A stretch of 38,193 bases of DNA from a virus. The notes beneath the pieces were generated by a model. That model was not told where the DNA came from and made no database searches. It saw only the letters and a program-made list of their open reading frames with translations. The stretch's first letter is position 1; each line of letters begins with the position of its first letter. The stretch is from positions 1 to 38,193 of IMG/VR virus record IMGVR_UViG_3300034073_002656, one strand, 5' to 3'. The position numbers were made by a program, and so were the translations under genes. Below, piece after piece: positions 2,739 through 38,193 of the stretch.

Positions 2739-5700
2739 GCCTAAAAACTACATTAAAGTCAAATTCCGGTAGAGCTACAAGAGTTTACAAAACCACTGAC
2801 ATGGGTATGCAATTGAATAAAGGCTACCGTTGGTGGGAAGCGAAAAGTGCAACCGAACGAAAAAACCAACTTCTTGCTACGGTAGCTTTTCTCAAACAAG
2901 GGCAAAAGTTTAGAACGGAAGAAACGAGGGTTTACAGTCAACTATATACTGGAAAGCCCATGGTCGGTTATGCGGGCCCGGCATTCAGCAAAGTAAGTAA
3001 TCCACTCAACATTGCTCCCGGAAGACCCACCTACAATCTTATTTCATCGGTCACTGACACTCTTGTCAGTCGATTGACACAGGATAGACCCGTTCCTGTA
3101 TTCCTAACTGACAACGGCGATTACAAAGAAAGAAATTTAGCTAAAAAGCTTAATGACTTTATCTTGGGGGAGTTCTACCGGACTAAGGCATACGAGATAG
3201 GAGAACAAATCCTAACCGATGCTTTAGTCCAGGGAACAGGCGTATTAAAAATCCATGAAACCATGGACAAAAAGGTTGGCATCGAGCGCGTTTTGCCTAT
3301 CGAGCTATTTGTAGACCTTGAGGAATCAAGATTCGGTGACCCAAGAAGAATGTATCAAGTTAAGTACATGGATCGCGCCATGGTTGAGAGCGCATTTCCT
3401 AAGCACAAGGCGATGGCCGCTGCTGCAGACAAAGGAATCTTAGAACAAAGTGATGCATCAAGAAGTGTTGCTGATTTAGTTGTTGTTGTAGAGGGCTGGG
3501 CACTTCCAAGCGGAGAAGACACAAACGACGGATGGCATTCGATTGTTTGTAGTGAGGGTGAGCTATTCGGCGAAAAGTGGACCAAGCAAAAGTTTCCTTT
3601 TGTATTTTTGCACCACAAAAAAAGACCTGAAGGATTCTGGGCCCAAGGCGTTGCCGAATCTTTAATGGGCACGCAATTAACGCTCAATGATTTATTAATT
3701 ACTATTGCACAATCAATTAGGACGATGGGTGTACCAAGAGTGTTTGTTGAGGAAGGTTCTAAGTGCAACACGGCAAGTTTTGTAAATAAAGTAGGAACAG
3801 TGATAAAGTATAGGGGTGCCGCTCCTATTTTTGCTACTAGCCCATCAAATGCTCCCGAGTTGTACGAAGAAAGAGCACGACTCATACAATTCGGTTTTGA
3901 GCAAGAGGGCTTGTCCATGCTTTCGGCGACAAGCCAAAAGCCATCGGGTCTCAATTCAGGAGAGGCACAACGAGTATATCAGGACATCAACTCGGATAGA
4001 TTTGCGTCGTTAGAAAGAAGGTATACAAACTTTTATGTGGATCTGGCTTACCAGCTTATTGATAAGGCCCTTGATATCGCGGAGCGAGATGGAAGCTATA
4101 CTACAATCTTTACAGACAGAAAAAAGGGATGCAAACAAATCGAGCTTCCTAAAATCAAAATGCTCAAAGACCCGTTCGTTATTCAGGCCTACGTTCAATC
4201 GTCGCTTCCAAAAGACCCCGCAGGACGACTGCAAAAAGTAACTGAGATGATTCAAAGTAACATGGTGACGATTCAAGAAGGGCGTCGCCTGCTTGATTTT
4301 CCTGATCTTGGCCAAGTTGAAACGCTTGCAAATGCTTCTGAAGAAAGAATTTACTACATTCTTGATGAAATAATTGAAAATGGCGTTTACGAAGGGCCTG
4401 ATCAGTTTATGAACCTTGCAAAGGCTACTGAAATCGTAACTCAGTACATAAACCTGTACTCCACTTGCAAGCTCGAAGAAGAAAAAGTGCAAATGCTTCG
4501 AGACTTCTTTGCTGAGATTCAAGATTTACAAATGGCAGCAATGCCACAGCCGCCGATGATGCCGCCTGAACCAAGTAATCAATTAGCTGTACCGCAAGGA
4601 CTTCCCACTAGTGAGCTATTGCCAATGGGACCTGGACCCGCGCCCACTGGCGGAGGCATCCCAATGATGGCTGAGGGCGGTATGGTGGAAGATCAAAAAA
4701 AAAATCCTTCTTTAGCTGAATCAGACCTTCCAGGCTGGCTACAAGGCATTAGACAAACAACGGTTCCAGCATTCCAACAAGCAAGTGAAACACTTCAAAA
4801 CGTTCCAGGCTTAGACTTTGCAACCTCTGCATTTAATCTCACATCTCCTGCCGCTTATGCATTTACCGAAGCGGGTAAGCCAGAGCCACAAGGAGGAATA
4901 CTTGAACAAATCTCCCATGTGCCTGGCGCTCAAGCTGCTGCAAACATTCCCACTGGTTGGAAGGTGTTGAGGGGCGAAGGAAAAAGCGCGTTTGATATAG
5001 CGAGAAAATACCAAGACGAAATTAAAAAAATAGAACAAGAAATTGCAGCGAAAAACTTAAAGGGCGAAGCAAAAGAAATGGCAATGATGGATATTATTGC
5101 AAGAGAAAGGAAACTTGAACAATTTGAGGGAATGAAAGAAAAGGCAAAACAAGCTTTTGAAGTCACTCGCACGCCGGAAGAAATTGCGGCAAAAGCACAA
5201 AAAGACGCCTTAGACAGGGTTACCAATATTGGGGGCGGCACGGTTGAAAGTCTTTTAAAACAAGGAAAGCCGATTGATGAAGTTGCCAAAGAGGTAATGA
5301 GCTGGAGAAAAAGAAATTTAGAAGAACAATTAAATAGATGGAAAAAAGATTTAAGCAATCCAAGAAGCTCTGCAGATGAAGTTAAATATGCAAAAAGGCG
5401 ATTGGAGGAATTAACTCAAGAATTGAAAGATTTTGAAAATGTTCCACTTGACCAAGTTGAAAGAGAGTTAATTGAAGATCAAAGGCGCTGGGAATTAATT
5501 ACAGGAGAAACTAAAAAAATAAACGAAAAAAGAGCCGAGCTACGAGCCGCAGAAGAAGAACGCTTGAAGAACGTTGTTGTTCCTATTGAGATTGAAGGCG
5601 GACCAAAGCCAAAGGGAAGGCCGTCAACAAAGCAAGTTGATCCGTATGAAAAAGAATGGACCAAATTAAATACAGAAAAAAGCAAGTTGTATGATGATTT

Positions 5701-5821
5701 TCACAATCCAAACAAAAAATCAAAACTTACCCAACAAGAATTTATTAATAAAAGAAATGAATTAGCAGAAAAAATAAACAAACTGGTTGAAACCAGAAGA
5801 AAGTTTAGAAGAAAAGACTAA
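2735..5821 (+). CDS. Portal protein with a 380-residue C-terminal extension
   Basis: A 1028-aa protein. Residues 1 to about 600 look like the portal (head-tail connector) of short-tailed phages: the long helical core includes LISSVTDTLVSRLTQDRPVP, ILTDALVQGTGVLKIHE and a segment around QKPSGLNSGEAQRVYQDI. A Pro/Met-rich linker (about 605-645) leads to an AEGGMVEDQK motif at 646-655 and a Lys/Glu-rich, coiled-coil extension (about 740-1028). Family portals are usually some 500-730 aa, so the extension is unusual. A run of ten A (4695-4704) sits exactly at the start of the extension. Losing one A gives TAG at 4713-4715 and gaining one gives TGA at 4717-4719, so slippage would release a normal-sized portal of about 660 aa. 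Confidence 0.85.
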   Translation: MSLKTTLKSNSGRATRVYKTTDMGMQLNKGYRWWEAKSATERKNQLLATVAFLKQGQKFRTEETRVYSQLYTGKPMVGYAGPAFSKVSNPLNIAPGRPTYNLISSVTDTLVSRLTQDRPVPVFLTDNGDYKERNLAKKLNDFILGEFYRTKAYEIGEQILTDALVQGTGVLKIHETMDKKVGIERVLPIELFVDLEESRFGDPRRMYQVKYMDRAMVESAFPKHKAMAAAADKGILEQSDASRSVADLVVVVEGWALPSGEDTNDGWHSIVCSEGELFGEKWTKQKFPFVFLHHKKRPEGFWAQGVAESLMGTQLTLNDLLITIAQSIRTMGVPRVFVEEGSKCNTASFVNKVGTVIKYRGAAPIFATSPSNAPELYEERARLIQFGFEQEGLSMLSATSQKPSGLNSGEAQRVYQDINSDRFASLERRYTNFYVDLAYQLIDKALDIAERDGSYTTIFTDRKKGCKQIELPKIKMLKDPFVIQAYVQSSLPKDPAGRLQKVTEMIQSNMVTIQEGRRLLDFPDLGQVETLANASEERIYYILDEIIENGVYEGPDQFMNLAKATEIVTQYINLYSTCKLEEEKVQMLRDFFAEIQDLQMAAMPQPPMMPPEPSNQLAVPQGLPTSELLPMGPGPAPTGGGIPMMAEGGMVEDQKKNPSLAESDLPGWLQGIRQTTVPAFQQASETLQNVPGLDFATSAFNLTSPAAYAFTEAGKPEPQGGILEQISHVPGAQAAANIPTGWKVLRGEGKSAFDIARKYQDEIKKIEQEIAAKNLKGEAKEMAMMDIIARERKLEQFEGMKEKAKQAFEVTRTPEEIAAKAQKDALDRVTNIGGGTVESLLKQGKPIDEVAKEVMSWRKRNLEEQLNRWKKDLSNPRSSADEVKYAKRRLEELTQELKDFENVPLDQVERELIEDQRRWELITGETKKINEKRAELRAAEEERLKNVVVPIEIEGGPKPKGRPSTKQVDPYEKEWTKLNTEKSKLYDDFHNPNKKSKLTQQEFINKRNELAEKINKLVETRRKFRRKD

Positions 5822-30011: not shown

Positions 30012-30103
30012 CAATTTATGGCTGGGTCGGACCGGCTCGAACGGTCATAAACCGAGTTAACAGCTCGGGGCTTTACCAATTAAGCTACAACCCAGTGACA
30101 ATT
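30008..30103. repeat. 9-bp direct repeats flanking the tRNA gene
   Basis: GTGACAATT occurs at 30008-30016 and again at 30095-30103, one copy on each side of the tRNA, 87 bases apart. The arrangement looks like a target duplication or recombination scar, but 9 bases alone can arise by chance. Confidence 0.6.
30019..30094 (-). tRNA. tRNA-Asn (anticodon GTT)
   Basis: On the minus strand the 76 bases fold as a complete tRNA. The acceptor stem is TGGGTTG with CGACCCA, including one T-G wobble, followed by discriminator G and an encoded CCA. The D arm has GCTTAATTGGTAAAGC. The anticodon stem CCGAG/CTCGG closes the loop CTGTTAA. The T arm GACCG-TTCGAGC-CGGTC is standard. The anticodon is GTT (Asn). 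It is the only gene found on the minus strand, between the lysis and early blocks, and lies antisense to any transcript reading from the lysis genes into 30171. Confidence 0.95.
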
Positions 30104-30129
30104 ATTGCGTCTGGATTTTAATTATCGAG

Positions 30130-30140
30130 TTTTGTATAAT
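30130..30140 (+). promoter_or_regulatory. Extended -10 promoter candidate for the early block
   Basis: TTTTGTATAAT (30130-30140) contains TG-n-TATAAT-like extended -10 spacing with a perfect TATAAT (30135-30140), 30 bases before the ATG of the Cas4-like gene. The -35 region is weak (TGGATT at 30112), as tolerated with an extended -10. It differs from the late motif and would be read by host RNA polymerase. Confidence 0.6.
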
Positions 30141-30170
30141 ACTTCAAGCCGGAAGCGAGGTCGGCAACAC

Positions 30171-31046
30171 ATGAAGCTTACCAACAAATTAAACTTACCA
30201 GAACCGTTTGTAAGAGCGGTATCAGAAAAAACATACGACAATCAAGGCAGCTGGAGAACGGTCACAGAGCTTATCGGCCCTCCTAAAATTGCTGCATTAA
30301 AACGAAAACATGAAGAAGAAATTGAGGTAGACGCAAGTGAACTTGTTTACACTTTTCAGGGCGAAACCGCCCATGCGACGATTGAGCGCGCTGCCAAAAC
30401 AATGTGCAAAGAAGGTTGGCAAGCTGAAGAGAGATTGTTTAAGACGGTACAGGGAAAGAAGATATCGGGTGCTTACGATTTATACAATCCAAAGACCGGA
30501 GAATTGATTGATGTTAAAAACTCGACGGCCTGGAAAGCTAAGCGTGGAGAAGCTCCTATCGAGTGGGTGCAACAGTGTAACTTACTGGCGCATCTTATAC
30601 GCGAAAAAGGACACGACGTTACAAGCATACGAATTATTCTCATTATTAGAGATCATTCAAAACCTGAATCTAGGCGAGACCCTGAATATCCGCAAACTCC
30701 CGTTGTGCAACTCGAAATCCCAATCTGGACGGACGAAGAAGCAAAAGCGTTCCTTGAAGATAGAGTCAGACTTCACCTACTTGCTGAAACTGAAGAAGTG
30801 GAGTGTTCTCCCGAAGACCGATGGGCAAAGCCAACGATTTGGGCGATCAGGAAAAGAGGAACTGCCCGGGCAATACCCGGAGGGCTTTACGCCGACAAAG
30901 AAAAAGCCAAAGAAAAATTAGAGCAATTAGGTAACGCATACGAGATTGACTATCGCCCTGGAGAAAACACAAGATGCGCTCTCTACTGCCCCGTTGCTAA
31001 GTTTTGTGCGCAGTATCAAAAGCTATTGACACAGCAAGGCAAATAG
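30171..31046 (+). CDS. Cas4-like PD-(D/E)XK nuclease with iron-sulphur cysteines
   Basis: A 291-aa protein; ATG at 30171 is preferred since an upstream TTG (30105) would place the promoter inside the gene. The nuclease motifs are His68 in FQGETAHATIE, Glu87, Asp103 in SGAYDLY and Asp114-Val-Lys116 in GELIDVKNS. Four cysteines, Cys212 (EEVECSPEDRW) plus Cys269, Cys273 and Cys279 (RCALYCPVAKFC), have the spacing of the 4Fe-4S cluster in Cas4/AddB-type exonucleases. A role in recombination, DNA end processing or host DNA breakdown is expected. First gene of the early block; no CRISPR genes lie nearby. Confidence 0.85.
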   Translation: MKLTNKLNLPEPFVRAVSEKTYDNQGSWRTVTELIGPPKIAALKRKHEEEIEVDASELVYTFQGETAHATIERAAKTMCKEGWQAEERLFKTVQGKKISGAYDLYNPKTGELIDVKNSTAWKAKRGEAPIEWVQQCNLLAHLIREKGHDVTSIRIILIIRDHSKPESRRDPEYPQTPVVQLEIPIWTDEEAKAFLEDRVRLHLLAETEEVECSPEDRWAKPTIWAIRKRGTARAIPGGLYADKEKAKEKLEQLGNAYEIDYRPGENTRCALYCPVAKFCAQYQKLLTQQGK

Positions 31047-31691: not shown

Positions 31692-32415
31692 AAACTGGAA
31701 GAAATACCAGGTTAGGGGAGATTACAAATCCCCTTGGTGGTTTGCTTTTCACAACAAATTTTGGCGTACAGAAAAGTACGATATTTTAACCCACGAACAG
31801 AAGTGGGCATGGATTTGTTTGCTCAGTCATGCCTCAGAACAGCGTTATAAATCGTCTATAACAATACGCGTTGATTGGTTTTGCAGGACCGCAAATGTTG
31901 AAAAAGCATCATTTTTAGGGGCATTAAAAAAGCTAATAAATTTAGATGTTTTGGAGTGCAAAGAAGAAATCTGTACGGAATCTGTACAGAATCTTGCCAG
32001 AATCTCTCCAGAAAATGGATCGTCCACAATTAAACAATCTAACAATTTAACAATTAAACAATATAACAATAATACAAAAAACAATTCTTTTAGAGTTTGC
32101 GTCGAACCAAAACAAGTTTTGGTTACAACGCCTACTGTTATTAAAAATGATCTTTCATTTTTTATTAATAAAAAGCTTTTAGAACTTTATCCGCAGGAGT
32201 ACATCGATCGTGAAAAAGTCAAAATGGAGATGTGGCTTGCTACCAACGGACATAAAAAGCCCAAATCCGATCGGGGTATGGTTCGGTTTGTAACAGGGTG
32301 GTTATCCCGGGGATGGGAGACTTATCGGCGCGGGCTTTCATCTAACAAACCAAAAGAACGCGGTATTGCAGAAATTTTAGCGGAGGATGAACAAAATGGA
32401 TCTATCGACCTATGA
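31666..32415 (+). CDS. Replication initiator candidate (winged-helix, lambda O-like organisation)
   Basis: A 249-aa protein. Residues about 10-105 (WWFAFHNKFWRTEKYDILTHEQKW, ITIRVDWFCRTANVEKASFLGALKKL) have the layout of the winged-helix N-terminus of phage replisome organisers. A low-complexity linker (about 106-148: TIKQSNNLTIKQYNNNTKNN) is encoded by two direct-repeat arrays. The C-terminal region (LYPQEYIDREKVKMEMWLATNG, GMVRFVTGWLSRGWETYRRG) is a conserved end in such proteins. The putative origin lies inside the gene, as in lambda O. The helicase-loader candidate follows with a 20-base overlap. Confidence 0.75.
   Translation: MESITLTIKNWKKYQVRGDYKSPWWFAFHNKFWRTEKYDILTHEQKWAWICLLSHASEQRYKSSITIRVDWFCRTANVEKASFLGALKKLINLDVLECKEEICTESVQNLARISPENGSSTIKQSNNLTIKQYNNNTKNNSFRVCVEPKQVLVTTPTVIKNDLSFFINKKLLELYPQEYIDREKVKMEMWLATNGHKKPKSDRGMVRFVTGWLSRGWETYRRGLSSNKPKERGIAEILAEDEQNGSIDL
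31968..32011 (+). repeat. Four tandem 11-bp repeats (iteron candidate)
   Basis: Units begin at 31968, 31979, 31990 and 32001 and share AATCT followed by six bases that end C-R/A-G: AATCTGTACGG, AATCTGTACAG, AATCTTGCCAG and AATCTCTCCAG. The 11-base period is not a multiple of three, so protein-level selection alone would not keep it in register. They lie inside the initiator gene. Confidence 0.8.
32025..32072 (+). repeat. Six tandem 8-bp A+T-rich repeats
   Basis: ACAAT-centred units begin at exact 8-base intervals, 32025, 32033, 32041, 32049, 32057 and 32065. Each is AACAAT plus two bases, the first having C for A; another AACAAT lies at 32080. The block is almost pure A/T plus the central C and could be the DNA-unwinding element beside the 11-bp iterons. 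Confidence 0.8.
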
Positions 32416-33114: not shown

Positions 33115-33474
33115 ATGAGAAGCAACCTGAAATACCGCAGCAAGAGGGTTAATCACGAAGGATTTTCCTTTGCCTCCCAATTAGAAGCCGCAGTTTATCA
33201 GCACCTAAAACTTCGTGAAAAGTGCGGCGAAATAAAAGACATTCAAAATCAAGATCATGTTTATCTAACCGACGCCCGAATTTGTTACATCCCGGACTTT
33301 AAATTTTTTGACATATCTCGAGACGAGTTTTCCTGGGCCGAAGCAAAAGGATTTGAAACAGACGTGTGGAAAATCAAAAAAAGACTTTGGCAACATTACG
33401 GTCCAGGAAGGCTTGAGATTTACAAAGGCAGCGCAAAACGAGTGACGCTATTTGAAACGGTGATTCCAAAATGA
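33115..33474 (+). CDS. DUF1064-type PD-(D/E)XK endonuclease (resolvase-like)
   Basis: A 119-aa protein starting KYRSKRVNHEGFSFASQLEA, close to the DUF1064 pattern. Active-site candidates are Glu24, Asp61 (YIPDFKF) and Glu76-Ala-Lys78 (WAEAKGFET), with a following KIKKRLWQHYG helix. Members of this fold are endonucleases similar to T7 gp3 that act on branched DNA, so a role in resolving recombination or replication intermediates before packaging is likely. The Shine-Dalgarno is weak. An ATGA overlap links it to the next gene. Confidence 0.8.
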   Translation: MRSNLKYRSKRVNHEGFSFASQLEAAVYQHLKLREKCGEIKDIQNQDHVYLTDARICYIPDFKFFDISRDEFSWAEAKGFETDVWKIKKRLWQHYGPGRLEIYKGSAKRVTLFETVIPK

Positions 33475-36930: not shown

Positions 36931-38193
36931 AGAAATCGCTTTATTCAAAGCGTTTCTTTCAAAGACAGAAAAGAAATCCTTCAACCTCGCAGATTTTTGT
37001 TTTGGTAAACAACTCGCGTTTGTGCAAGACCCATCGCCATTTGCCACGGCCGTTTGTAGTGTTAGGGCTGGAAAGACGGTCGGGTGTGCCGCTGACTTGG
37101 TTCACACGGCACTGGGGCGAGAAGGAATCGTGTGCTTGTATATTACACTTAATCGCCTGTCAGCTAAACGAATCATCTGGCCGGACCTACTTAGAATTTG
37201 CAGAGAATACAACTTAGGAGCAAAGATTAATGAATCTGAGTTATCACTTACGTTTCCAAACCGCTCAGTTATTTATATTTCTGGCGCTAAAGATAAATCT
37301 GAAATTGAGAAGTTTCGGGGTTTGGCTCTTGCACTTTGTTATATCGACGAATGCCAAGCTTTTAGGGATTACATCAGAGAACTTGTCGACGAAGTTATCG
37401 CGAAACGACTATTCGACTATGCTGGCCGTTTACGACTTATCGGAACTCCAGGCCCCGTCCCTGTTGGATATTTTTATGAATGCTCTGTATCGAAACAATG
37501 GTCGCATCACTACTGGACAATGTTTGACAACCCCTGGCTCCCAATCAAATCAGGGCTCAGCCATGAACAAATCCTGCAGCGAGAACTTGACAGAAAAGGT
37601 GTTACACGAGAAGACCCAAGCATCCAGCGAGAATGTTTCGGAAGATGGGCTTTTGATCCTAACTCGCTTGTCTTCAGATACAACGATTCATTAAATGATT
37701 ATGCAGACCTTCCACATTATGGAACTAGTTGGAATTATGTTATTGGGTGCGATTTGGGGTATGACGATAGCGACGCTATGGCTGTACTTGGCTGGAATGA
37801 TTCAGACCCAAAACTGTACTTGGTTGAAGAAGTGGTTAAAAACAAACAAGGAATCACAGAATTTGCCTCCCAACTCGACGCACTTATTAAGAAATATTCT
37901 CCACAAAAAGTAGTGGTAGACACCGGCGGTCTTGGAAAAAAGATTACAGAAGAAATTACAAGGCGTTACTCCATTCCCCTTGCGCCCGCTGAGAAGCAAA
38001 GAAAGTTTGAATACATTGAGCTATTAAACGATGCGCTTCGTACGCAAAGGTTTATGGCTAAAAAGAAATCGAGATTTGCTGAAGACAGTAAGCTTTTGGA
38101 ATGGGACCGGGATGATCCAAATCCTGATAAATTAAAGATAAAAGACACGTTTCACTCAGACATTTGCGACGCGGTTCTTTATGCATTTAGAGA
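36908..38193 (+). CDS. terL: Terminase large subunit, N-terminal 428 residues (continues at 247-394)
   Basis: The packaging motor ATPase and nuclease. The ATG at 36908 lies inside terS. The ATPase shows Walker A SVRAGKTV (51-58), Walker B LCYIDE (143-148) and coupling motif LIGTPGP (177-183). The nuclease domain has Asp282 (GCDLGYDDSD), Asp338 (VVVDTGG) and Asp418/Asp421 (HSDICDAV). The gene has no stop before the window ends and resumes in frame at base 2/247, giving 477 aa in total. The mismatch at 38066 makes this copy KKKS where the left copy has KKES. Confidence 0.95.
   Translation, partial: MEQHLSNEEIALFKAFLSKTEKKSFNLADFCFGKQLAFVQDPSPFATAVCSVRAGKTVGCAADLVHTALGREGIVCLYITLNRLSAKRIIWPDLLRICREYNLGAKINESELSLTFPNRSVIYISGAKDKSEIEKFRGLALALCYIDECQAFRDYIRELVDEVIAKRLFDYAGRLRLIGTPGPVPVGYFYECSVSKQWSHHYWTMFDNPWLPIKSGLSHEQILQRELDRKGVTREDPSIQRECFGRWAFDPNSLVFRYNDSLNDYADLPHYGTSWNYVIGCDLGYDDSDAMAVLGWNDSDPKLYLVEEVVKNKQGITEFASQLDALIKKYSPQKVVVDTGGLGKKITEEITRRYSIPLAPAEKQRKFEYIELLNDALRTQRFMAKKKSRFAEDSKLLEWDRDDPNPDKLKIKDTFHSDICDAVLYAFR
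37948..38193. repeat. Right copy of 246-bp terminal direct repeat
   Basis: Same sequence as 1-246 except A at 38066. Joining the copies gives a circle of 37,947 bp and restores one uninterrupted terminase gene. Confidence 0.97.

Follow-up and report, generated by a model that had tools for sequence, protein, structure and literature searches.

A two-part repeat array inside the initiator gene of a viral genome as a probable replication origin

The stretch of DNA analysed here (hereafter, the window) is a viral record of 38,193 bp. Within the gene for a putative replication initiator, P0001, it carries two adjoining tandem-repeat arrays and, judging from the sequence, these repeats are very probably the site at which the phage starts replication of its DNA. 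In the reading proposed here, to which we assign a probability of roughly 0.8, the origin lies inside the initiator gene, the N-terminal part of the protein binds the repeats of the first array (iterons), the second array melts, and the C-terminal part together with the product of the neighbouring gene, P0002, loads the helicase. Intragenic origins of the lambda and pSK41 type are already known; the one proposed here is a variant, combining iterons spaced by one helical turn with an unwinding array of exact short period. It is in the form of such a lambda/pSK41-type variant that the original prediction of an origin at this position is supported. Arrays of 11 or 12 bp combined with arrays of 5, 7 or 8 bp in phage initiators were not found described in the full-text literature searched, a coverage that leaves out most subscription journals.

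The first array (array 1) consists of four 11-bp units at 31968–32011 on the + strand (AATCTGTACGG, AATCTGTACAG, AATCTTGCCAG and AATCTCTCCAG, in this order), which are proposed to be initiator-binding iterons placed one per helical turn. It is followed on the same strand, at 32026–32073, by six 8-bp units of the type ACAATNNN (array 2; in order, ACAATTAA, ACAATCTA, ACAATTTA, ACAATTAA, ACAATATA and ACAATAAT), the proposed DNA-unwinding element, which runs on as a degenerate tail as far as 32085. Four 11-bp and six A+T-rich 8-bp units had been predicted; they are evident from direct reading of the units and both arrays were independently reported by TRF (array 1: 31968–32013, period 11, score 50; array 2: 32026–32070, period 8, score 62), whose top row for the whole window is a period of 24 within array 2 (score 78). 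The predicted gap of 13 bases between the arrays holds if the 8-bp unit is taken to begin one base earlier; otherwise the gap is 14 bases.

All 38,193 bp were scanned for repeats at lags of 5–25, with the three best sites kept for each lag. Both arrays gave 27 of 33 matches; among the other sites at lags not divisible by three, the best gave 21 of 33. In the 38 kb, no repeats of non-codon period are stronger than arrays 1 and 2. Neither 11 nor 8 is a multiple of three, so that neither period fits the codon length, as had been noted, and the encoded linker is indeed of low complexity. The segment 32026–32085 is the most A+T-rich 60 bp of the genome, with 85% A+T and no G on the + strand; this value is reached by 8 of 38,134 60-bp segments, all of which begin at 32026–32033. 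Nowhere else in the genome do repeats or A+T content reach a comparable level. When the P0001 gene was shuffled among synonymous codons (n = 1000; p values uncorrected for the 13 lags tested), the periodicities were significant at lag 11 (p = 0.002) and lag 8 (p = 0.008), and a second run covering 22 lags gave p values of 0.002 and 0.007, respectively. Since synonymous shuffling fails to reproduce the arrays, the repeats are kept at the DNA level beyond the needs of the protein.

Bases 1–246 and 37948–38193 of the window form a direct terminal repeat with one mismatch, as expected of a complete phage assembly that is terminally redundant or circular, and the genome ends fall inside what looks like a terminase gene. 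Nearly all genes are carried by the + strand, and the cumulative GC skew rises near-steadily with no switch, which makes it uninformative as to the origin. A DNA-level search against named phages returned a tRNA-Asn fragment only. The single tRNA gene, for tRNA-Asn (GTT), is located on the minus strand at 30019–30094, between a lysis-like gene and an exonuclease gene (phrog_2139; 30105–31046, + strand). ARAGORN found tRNA-Asn, every time on the minus strand, in seven of nine related loci (five distinct contigs), and the two loci without it stop short of its expected place.

The P0001 gene (31666–32415, + strand) encodes a protein of 249 aa. P0001 itself had no Pfam or PHROG match at E 0.1, RepA_N (PF06970) included. 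Searches for direct homologues in viral_contigs and genome_contigs yielded little or nothing, a sequence search of solved structures nothing credible, and the search against named phages one match (E 0.5); the match to plasmids (E 0.01, Aeromonas) is confined to the linker and the C-terminal part. The copy of the gene at locus L002, which resembles P0001 over its N-terminal half (E 2.7e-5), matches the PHROG annotations 'replication initiation O-like' (5.9e-18) and 'DnaD-like helicase loader' (4.3e-21), and the copies at L007, L009 and L011 have weak matches to phrog_186. Relatives of P0001 and most of the array-bearing ORFs described below match the O-like or DnaD-like PHROGs 345, 186, 9474 and 10469, unlike P0001 itself, which matches none of these at E 0.1. 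In addition, the N-terminal profile of the window family aligns with that of a separate phage initiator family, A9, over approximately residues 23–94, ahead of the arrays (hhalign probability 94.8%, E 4.9e-08); the first member of set A9 matches phrog_9474. Against the phrog_186-type set A8 the window-family profile gave 77% in hhalign. By these profile matches, the N-terminus of P0001 shares winged-helix homology with the phage DnaD-like/O-like initiator superfamily, and the predicted identity of the gene as an initiator gains support that is indirect but good from the L002 homologue and the N-terminal profile match.

A predicted model of P0001 displays a winged-helix-like N-terminal domain (approximately residues 1–100), a low-confidence stretch at 101–160 corresponding to a disordered linker, and a helical C-terminal part (approximately 163–221). 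The arrays cover codons 101–140, within the low-confidence linker. Sequence and model together show why the gene tolerates the arrays: what they encode is the disordered linker between its two folded parts. Foldseek searches with P0001 placed N-terminal structures of RepA-type initiators, presumably pSK41-type RepA, on top, albeit weakly (E 0.59–2.5; Z 5.5–5.8). CodY winged helices score level or better (Z 6.5), so that P0001 is assigned to no family by its fold; compared with RepA_N plasmid pSK41, P0001 has no RepA_N sequence match and the structural match is weak (Z ~5.8).

Relatives were located through the neighbouring exonuclease gene and a DUF1064/Holliday-junction-resolvase-like gene (33115–33474, + strand), which resulted in eight copies of the initiator gene, including that of the window. 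In each of them the linker sequence contains a short periodic array (p 0.001–0.017 by synonymous shuffling, uncorrected). Five copies (L002, L007, L009, L010 and L011) have a period of 5, two (L006 and L008) a period of 7, and that of the window one of 8; the unit sequences vary between lineages. Selection acting on the DNA, as had been proposed for the window, is thereby supported from two sides, by the shuffle test and by relatives whose arrays occupy the corresponding position but consist of other units. Significant 11-bp units adjoin the short array in five of the eight copies (the window, L002, L007, L010 with p = 0.050, and L011); the number is no higher because no significant 11-bp array was detected in L009 (p = 0.71) or L008 (p = 0.54) and the 11-bp match of L006 is ~115 bp upstream of the 7-bp array, within the sequence that encodes the winged helix. 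The highest TRF row falls in the initiator gene both in the window and in the six initiator-bearing loci run through TRF. At locus L012, positions 39–239 hold 33 copies of a 6-bp unit, CCATAC (TRF score 283).

N-terminal type and array type are linked across the relatives. The nearest genome found (L005/L006) is 88% identical to the window in the exonuclease, 76% in P0002, 91% in the DUF1064 protein and 77% in the initiator C-terminus, but the N-terminal domain of its initiator is unrelated to that of the window and its arrays are different. L010 represents the mirror case: the C-terminus of its initiator is 81% like that of the window, whereas the N-terminus is 33% like that of the window and 61–66% like those of L009 and L007, whose type of 5-bp array it carries. 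Judging from these two relatives, the N-terminal domain and the arrays seem to travel as one cassette, apart from the C-terminal part. Such modularity matches a plasmid precedent, described in passages of PMC5703833: the rep gene of pSK41 contains four central intragenic Rep boxes bound by the N-terminal domain, with the linker encoded by ori, and in the chimera pPR9 the N-terminal domain and the origin were exchanged as a block while the C-terminal domain was kept.

P0002 (32387–32878, + strand), a gene for a small all-helical protein, adjoins the initiator gene in seven of the eight loci compared. Its product found no match by sequence, solved structures included, and none with E below 0.6 in a fold search, while its profile retrieved little or nothing from genome_contigs. 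We infer that it may act as the helicase-loading partner. In L002, the place of P0002 is taken by a 349-aa gene (4715–5764) that reads like a RecA-fold, DnaB-like helicase, and the C-terminus of the L002 initiator is unrelated to those of the other copies. This locus suggests that the initiator C-terminus and the downstream partner may also be exchanged together.

The lambda-like design that had been proposed for the locus is borne out by comparison with lambda (gene O) and P22 (gene 18). As in these phages, the units of the window lie in the middle of the initiator gene and come before an A+T-rich, strand-asymmetric tract, which is followed by a gene for a (putative) helicase partner. With these two genes as positive controls, the shuffle test recovered the annotated iteron spacing of lambda O (lags 20, 23 and 24) and, for P22 gene 18, lags 23 and 24 as well as a 7-bp period in the A-rich array inside the annotated rep_origin. 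However, the units of lambda and P22 recur at about two helical turns (20–24 bp), whereas those of the window recur every turn (11 bp), and array 2, unlike the lambda tract, has an exact 8-bp period; the likeness is judged by layout and periods. Because of the difference in spacing, the site is not classed among the lambda/P22 origins proper and would only work like one. The winged-helix N-terminus would bind the four 11-bp iterons, all on one face of the helix; the assembled complex would then strain the adjoining A+T-rich 8-bp array and melt it, as in lambda, and the C-terminal part and the P0002 product would bring in the replicative helicase. In lambda, O is reported to bind both the iterons and A/T-rich single strands, and the A+T-rich tract, which is strand-asymmetric, to be required for unwinding (PMC7466680, PMC5043065). 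In phage P1, replication is reported to be impaired when an A/T-rich stretch inside repL is altered synonymously (PMC9948254).

Periods of 5, 7 and 8 hold no fixed helical face, which favours single-strand reading or tuned melting over double-strand operator sites; array 2 is accordingly more readily seen as an element that may be read as single-stranded DNA or tuned for melting. It is also possible, though less likely than not, that the site is an origin in which array 2 matters by its A+T content alone, the 8-bp period being incidental. In favour of this, no stretch of the genome is richer in A+T than array 2, and binding of lambda O to the iterons is reportedly unaffected by replacement of the AT-rich region (PMC7466680). 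Yet an exact period would not be needed for this, and separate lineages have retained periods of 5, 7 or 8 together with a composition that is specific to the strand. Single-strand reading would have a counterpart in oriC of B. subtilis, where the DnaA-trio/DnaD element is likewise a short periodic motif beside double-strand initiator sites and is read on one single strand. The period of the DnaA-trio is 3 nt, versus 5, 7 or 8 in the window family; array 2, with its period of 8, was therefore rejected as a DnaA-trio element, and no DnaA-type AAA+ protein was identified in the window. DnaD, as described in PMC10201434, binds pairs of TnnT, and the complement of array 2 is rich in TnnT, as any T-rich strand would be.

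Six initiators of named phages were chosen by protein likeness to P0001 or one of its relatives, without reference to repeats. Lag-11 repeats were significant (p≤0.05) in four of them (phiRgIBDN1, Shimadzu (Roseburia), BS-TP2 and Vibrio 1.154), and a 5-bp array lies downstream of the 11-bp units in three (phiRgIBDN1, Shimadzu and Vibrio 1.154). At p≤0.05, Marinitoga virus 2 and Pseudomonas D14O lacked lag-11 repeats as well as arrays of 5, 7 or 8 bp; in Pseudomonas D14O, lags 16, 17 and 22 reached this level instead. Among all 14 genes tested, lag 11 was significant (p≤0.05) in ten and the neighbouring control lag 13 in one. No significant period was obtained for TP901-1 rep in the shuffle test; repeats in TP901-1 rep and 8-bp repeats in pAD1 repA are present in the literature.

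The virus collection was also scanned blindly for arrays of the second type. Searches for five ACADR units found at least 120 stretches; among the 120 matches listed, 69 are in a same-strand ORF of ≥150 aa and 51 outside such an ORF, and 26 are in an antisense one. These 69 ORFs include 24 matches to phrog_9474 and 23 to phrog_3926 (both replication initiation), 21 to the DnaD-like family and 14 to the primosomal family, the categories being overlapping, as well as three DNA methyltransferases. ORFs redundant at 70% identity were reduced to single representatives for the lag tests, in which 47 of the 48 ACADR representatives were used (one was filtered out). The 66 bp before the ACADR array of these 47 ORFs gave a mean z of 1.60 at lag 11 and 1.26 at lag 22, with ≤0.52 at other lags; two control regions gave 0.45 and 0.14 at lag 11. 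Three units of the octamer type found in the window (ACAATNWA) occur in 58 stretches, 13 of them in long ORFs, and 12 of these 13 arrays begin at residue 126–166. Upstream of the octamer array, nine non-redundant ORFs gave z values of 1.97 at lag 11 and 3.00 at lag 12. Ten of the 13 ORFs were scanned for families (L185, L187 and L188 were left out): six match initiator-type PHROGs, L155 is an HNH endonuclease, L148 and L200 have no PHROG match and L150 matches an unknown-function family only, the last three clustering with L175, an O-like match.

The permuted pentamer AACDR also yielded at least 120 stretches, and 70 of the 120 listed lack an ACADR array. ORFs of ≥150 aa contain 32 of these 70; 23 of the 32 match phrog_186 and most are initiators, of another lineage than those reached with ACADR. 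Since most of its long-ORF matches are initiators too, AACDR is no negative control, and ACADR was rejected as the recognised word, periodicity alone being retained. In the AACDR-only set (29 non-redundant ORFs), the mean z at lag 12 upstream of the array was 4.18. Synonymous shuffling gave p<0.01 at lag 11 or 12 for 15/47 (ACADR), 6/9 (octamer) and 15/33 (AACDR) non-redundant ORFs, and for 0/47, 0/9 and 1/33 at control lag 13; lag 10 was also raised (6/47, 0/9 and 4/33), perhaps as an effect of degenerate pentamers that continue further upstream. Blind searches for arrays of the second type led mainly to initiator genes in which units of 11 or 12 bp precede the array. A short array preceded by one-turn units is thus a layout that recurs, in a substantial minority by the strict test and with a lineage-specific unit length.

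We consider it improbable that the arrays, with no function of their own, merely arose by replication slippage in a linker that is rich in Asn, Thr and Gln and under no constraint. The linker is disordered, low-complexity linkers do gather tandem duplications, and 45 of the 58 ACAATNWA stretches are outside ORFs of ≥150 aa, many of them just before a start codon. However, the periods of 5, 7, 8 and 11 are not multiples of three, the arrays vanish on synonymous shuffling, and they recur, in the same position but made up of different units, in 8/8 homologues and in other initiator families, their spacing being kept while unit sequences diverge, unlike in fresh duplications. Still less credible is an operator in array 1, through which P0001 would repress its own operon while the true origin lies elsewhere: autoregulation also uses winged-helix domains and phased repeats, and the iterons of iteron plasmids often serve both autoregulation and replication, but the arrays are ~300 bp inside the gene, a promoter scan near them found nothing above the shuffle mean (3 found, 4.6 expected), and the genome offers no comparable site for an origin elsewhere.

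Beyond the intragenic origin proposed for the window, we tentatively suggest, at somewhat less than even odds, that many phage initiator genes share a cis-grammar, in which iterons of 11 bp (12 bp in the MNYIKE type) would be followed by a lineage-typical, strand-asymmetric array of 5, 7 or 8 bp, which the initiator or a DnaD-like domain would read in single-stranded form, as a phage counterpart of the DnaA-trio. Of more interest than the window alone is this wider pattern, which spans different initiator lineages. Phage origins are seldom mapped and, if the grammar is indeed shared, they could be located from sequence alone, the two-part signature predicting origins for many uncultured phages. 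The related cassettes, with arrays of 5, 7 and 8 bp and swapped N-terminal domains, constitute a natural test of the way in which the initiator reads the unwinding element.

Some further observations were made during the scans. In initiators of the MNYIKE type (phrog_186), units of 12 bp precede 5-bp arrays of the AACKA type (L211, L213, L228, L249, L264, L278 and others). DNA-methyltransferase-like ORFs at L077 and L128 contain (ACAGA)n-type arrays near the 3' end, and several G+C-rich ORFs look spurious. Octamer arrays of the ACAATTAA type outside long ORFs, often right before an ATG, are found at L152, L154, L156, L157, L183, L189 and other loci, and might in this position represent a leader or promoter element.
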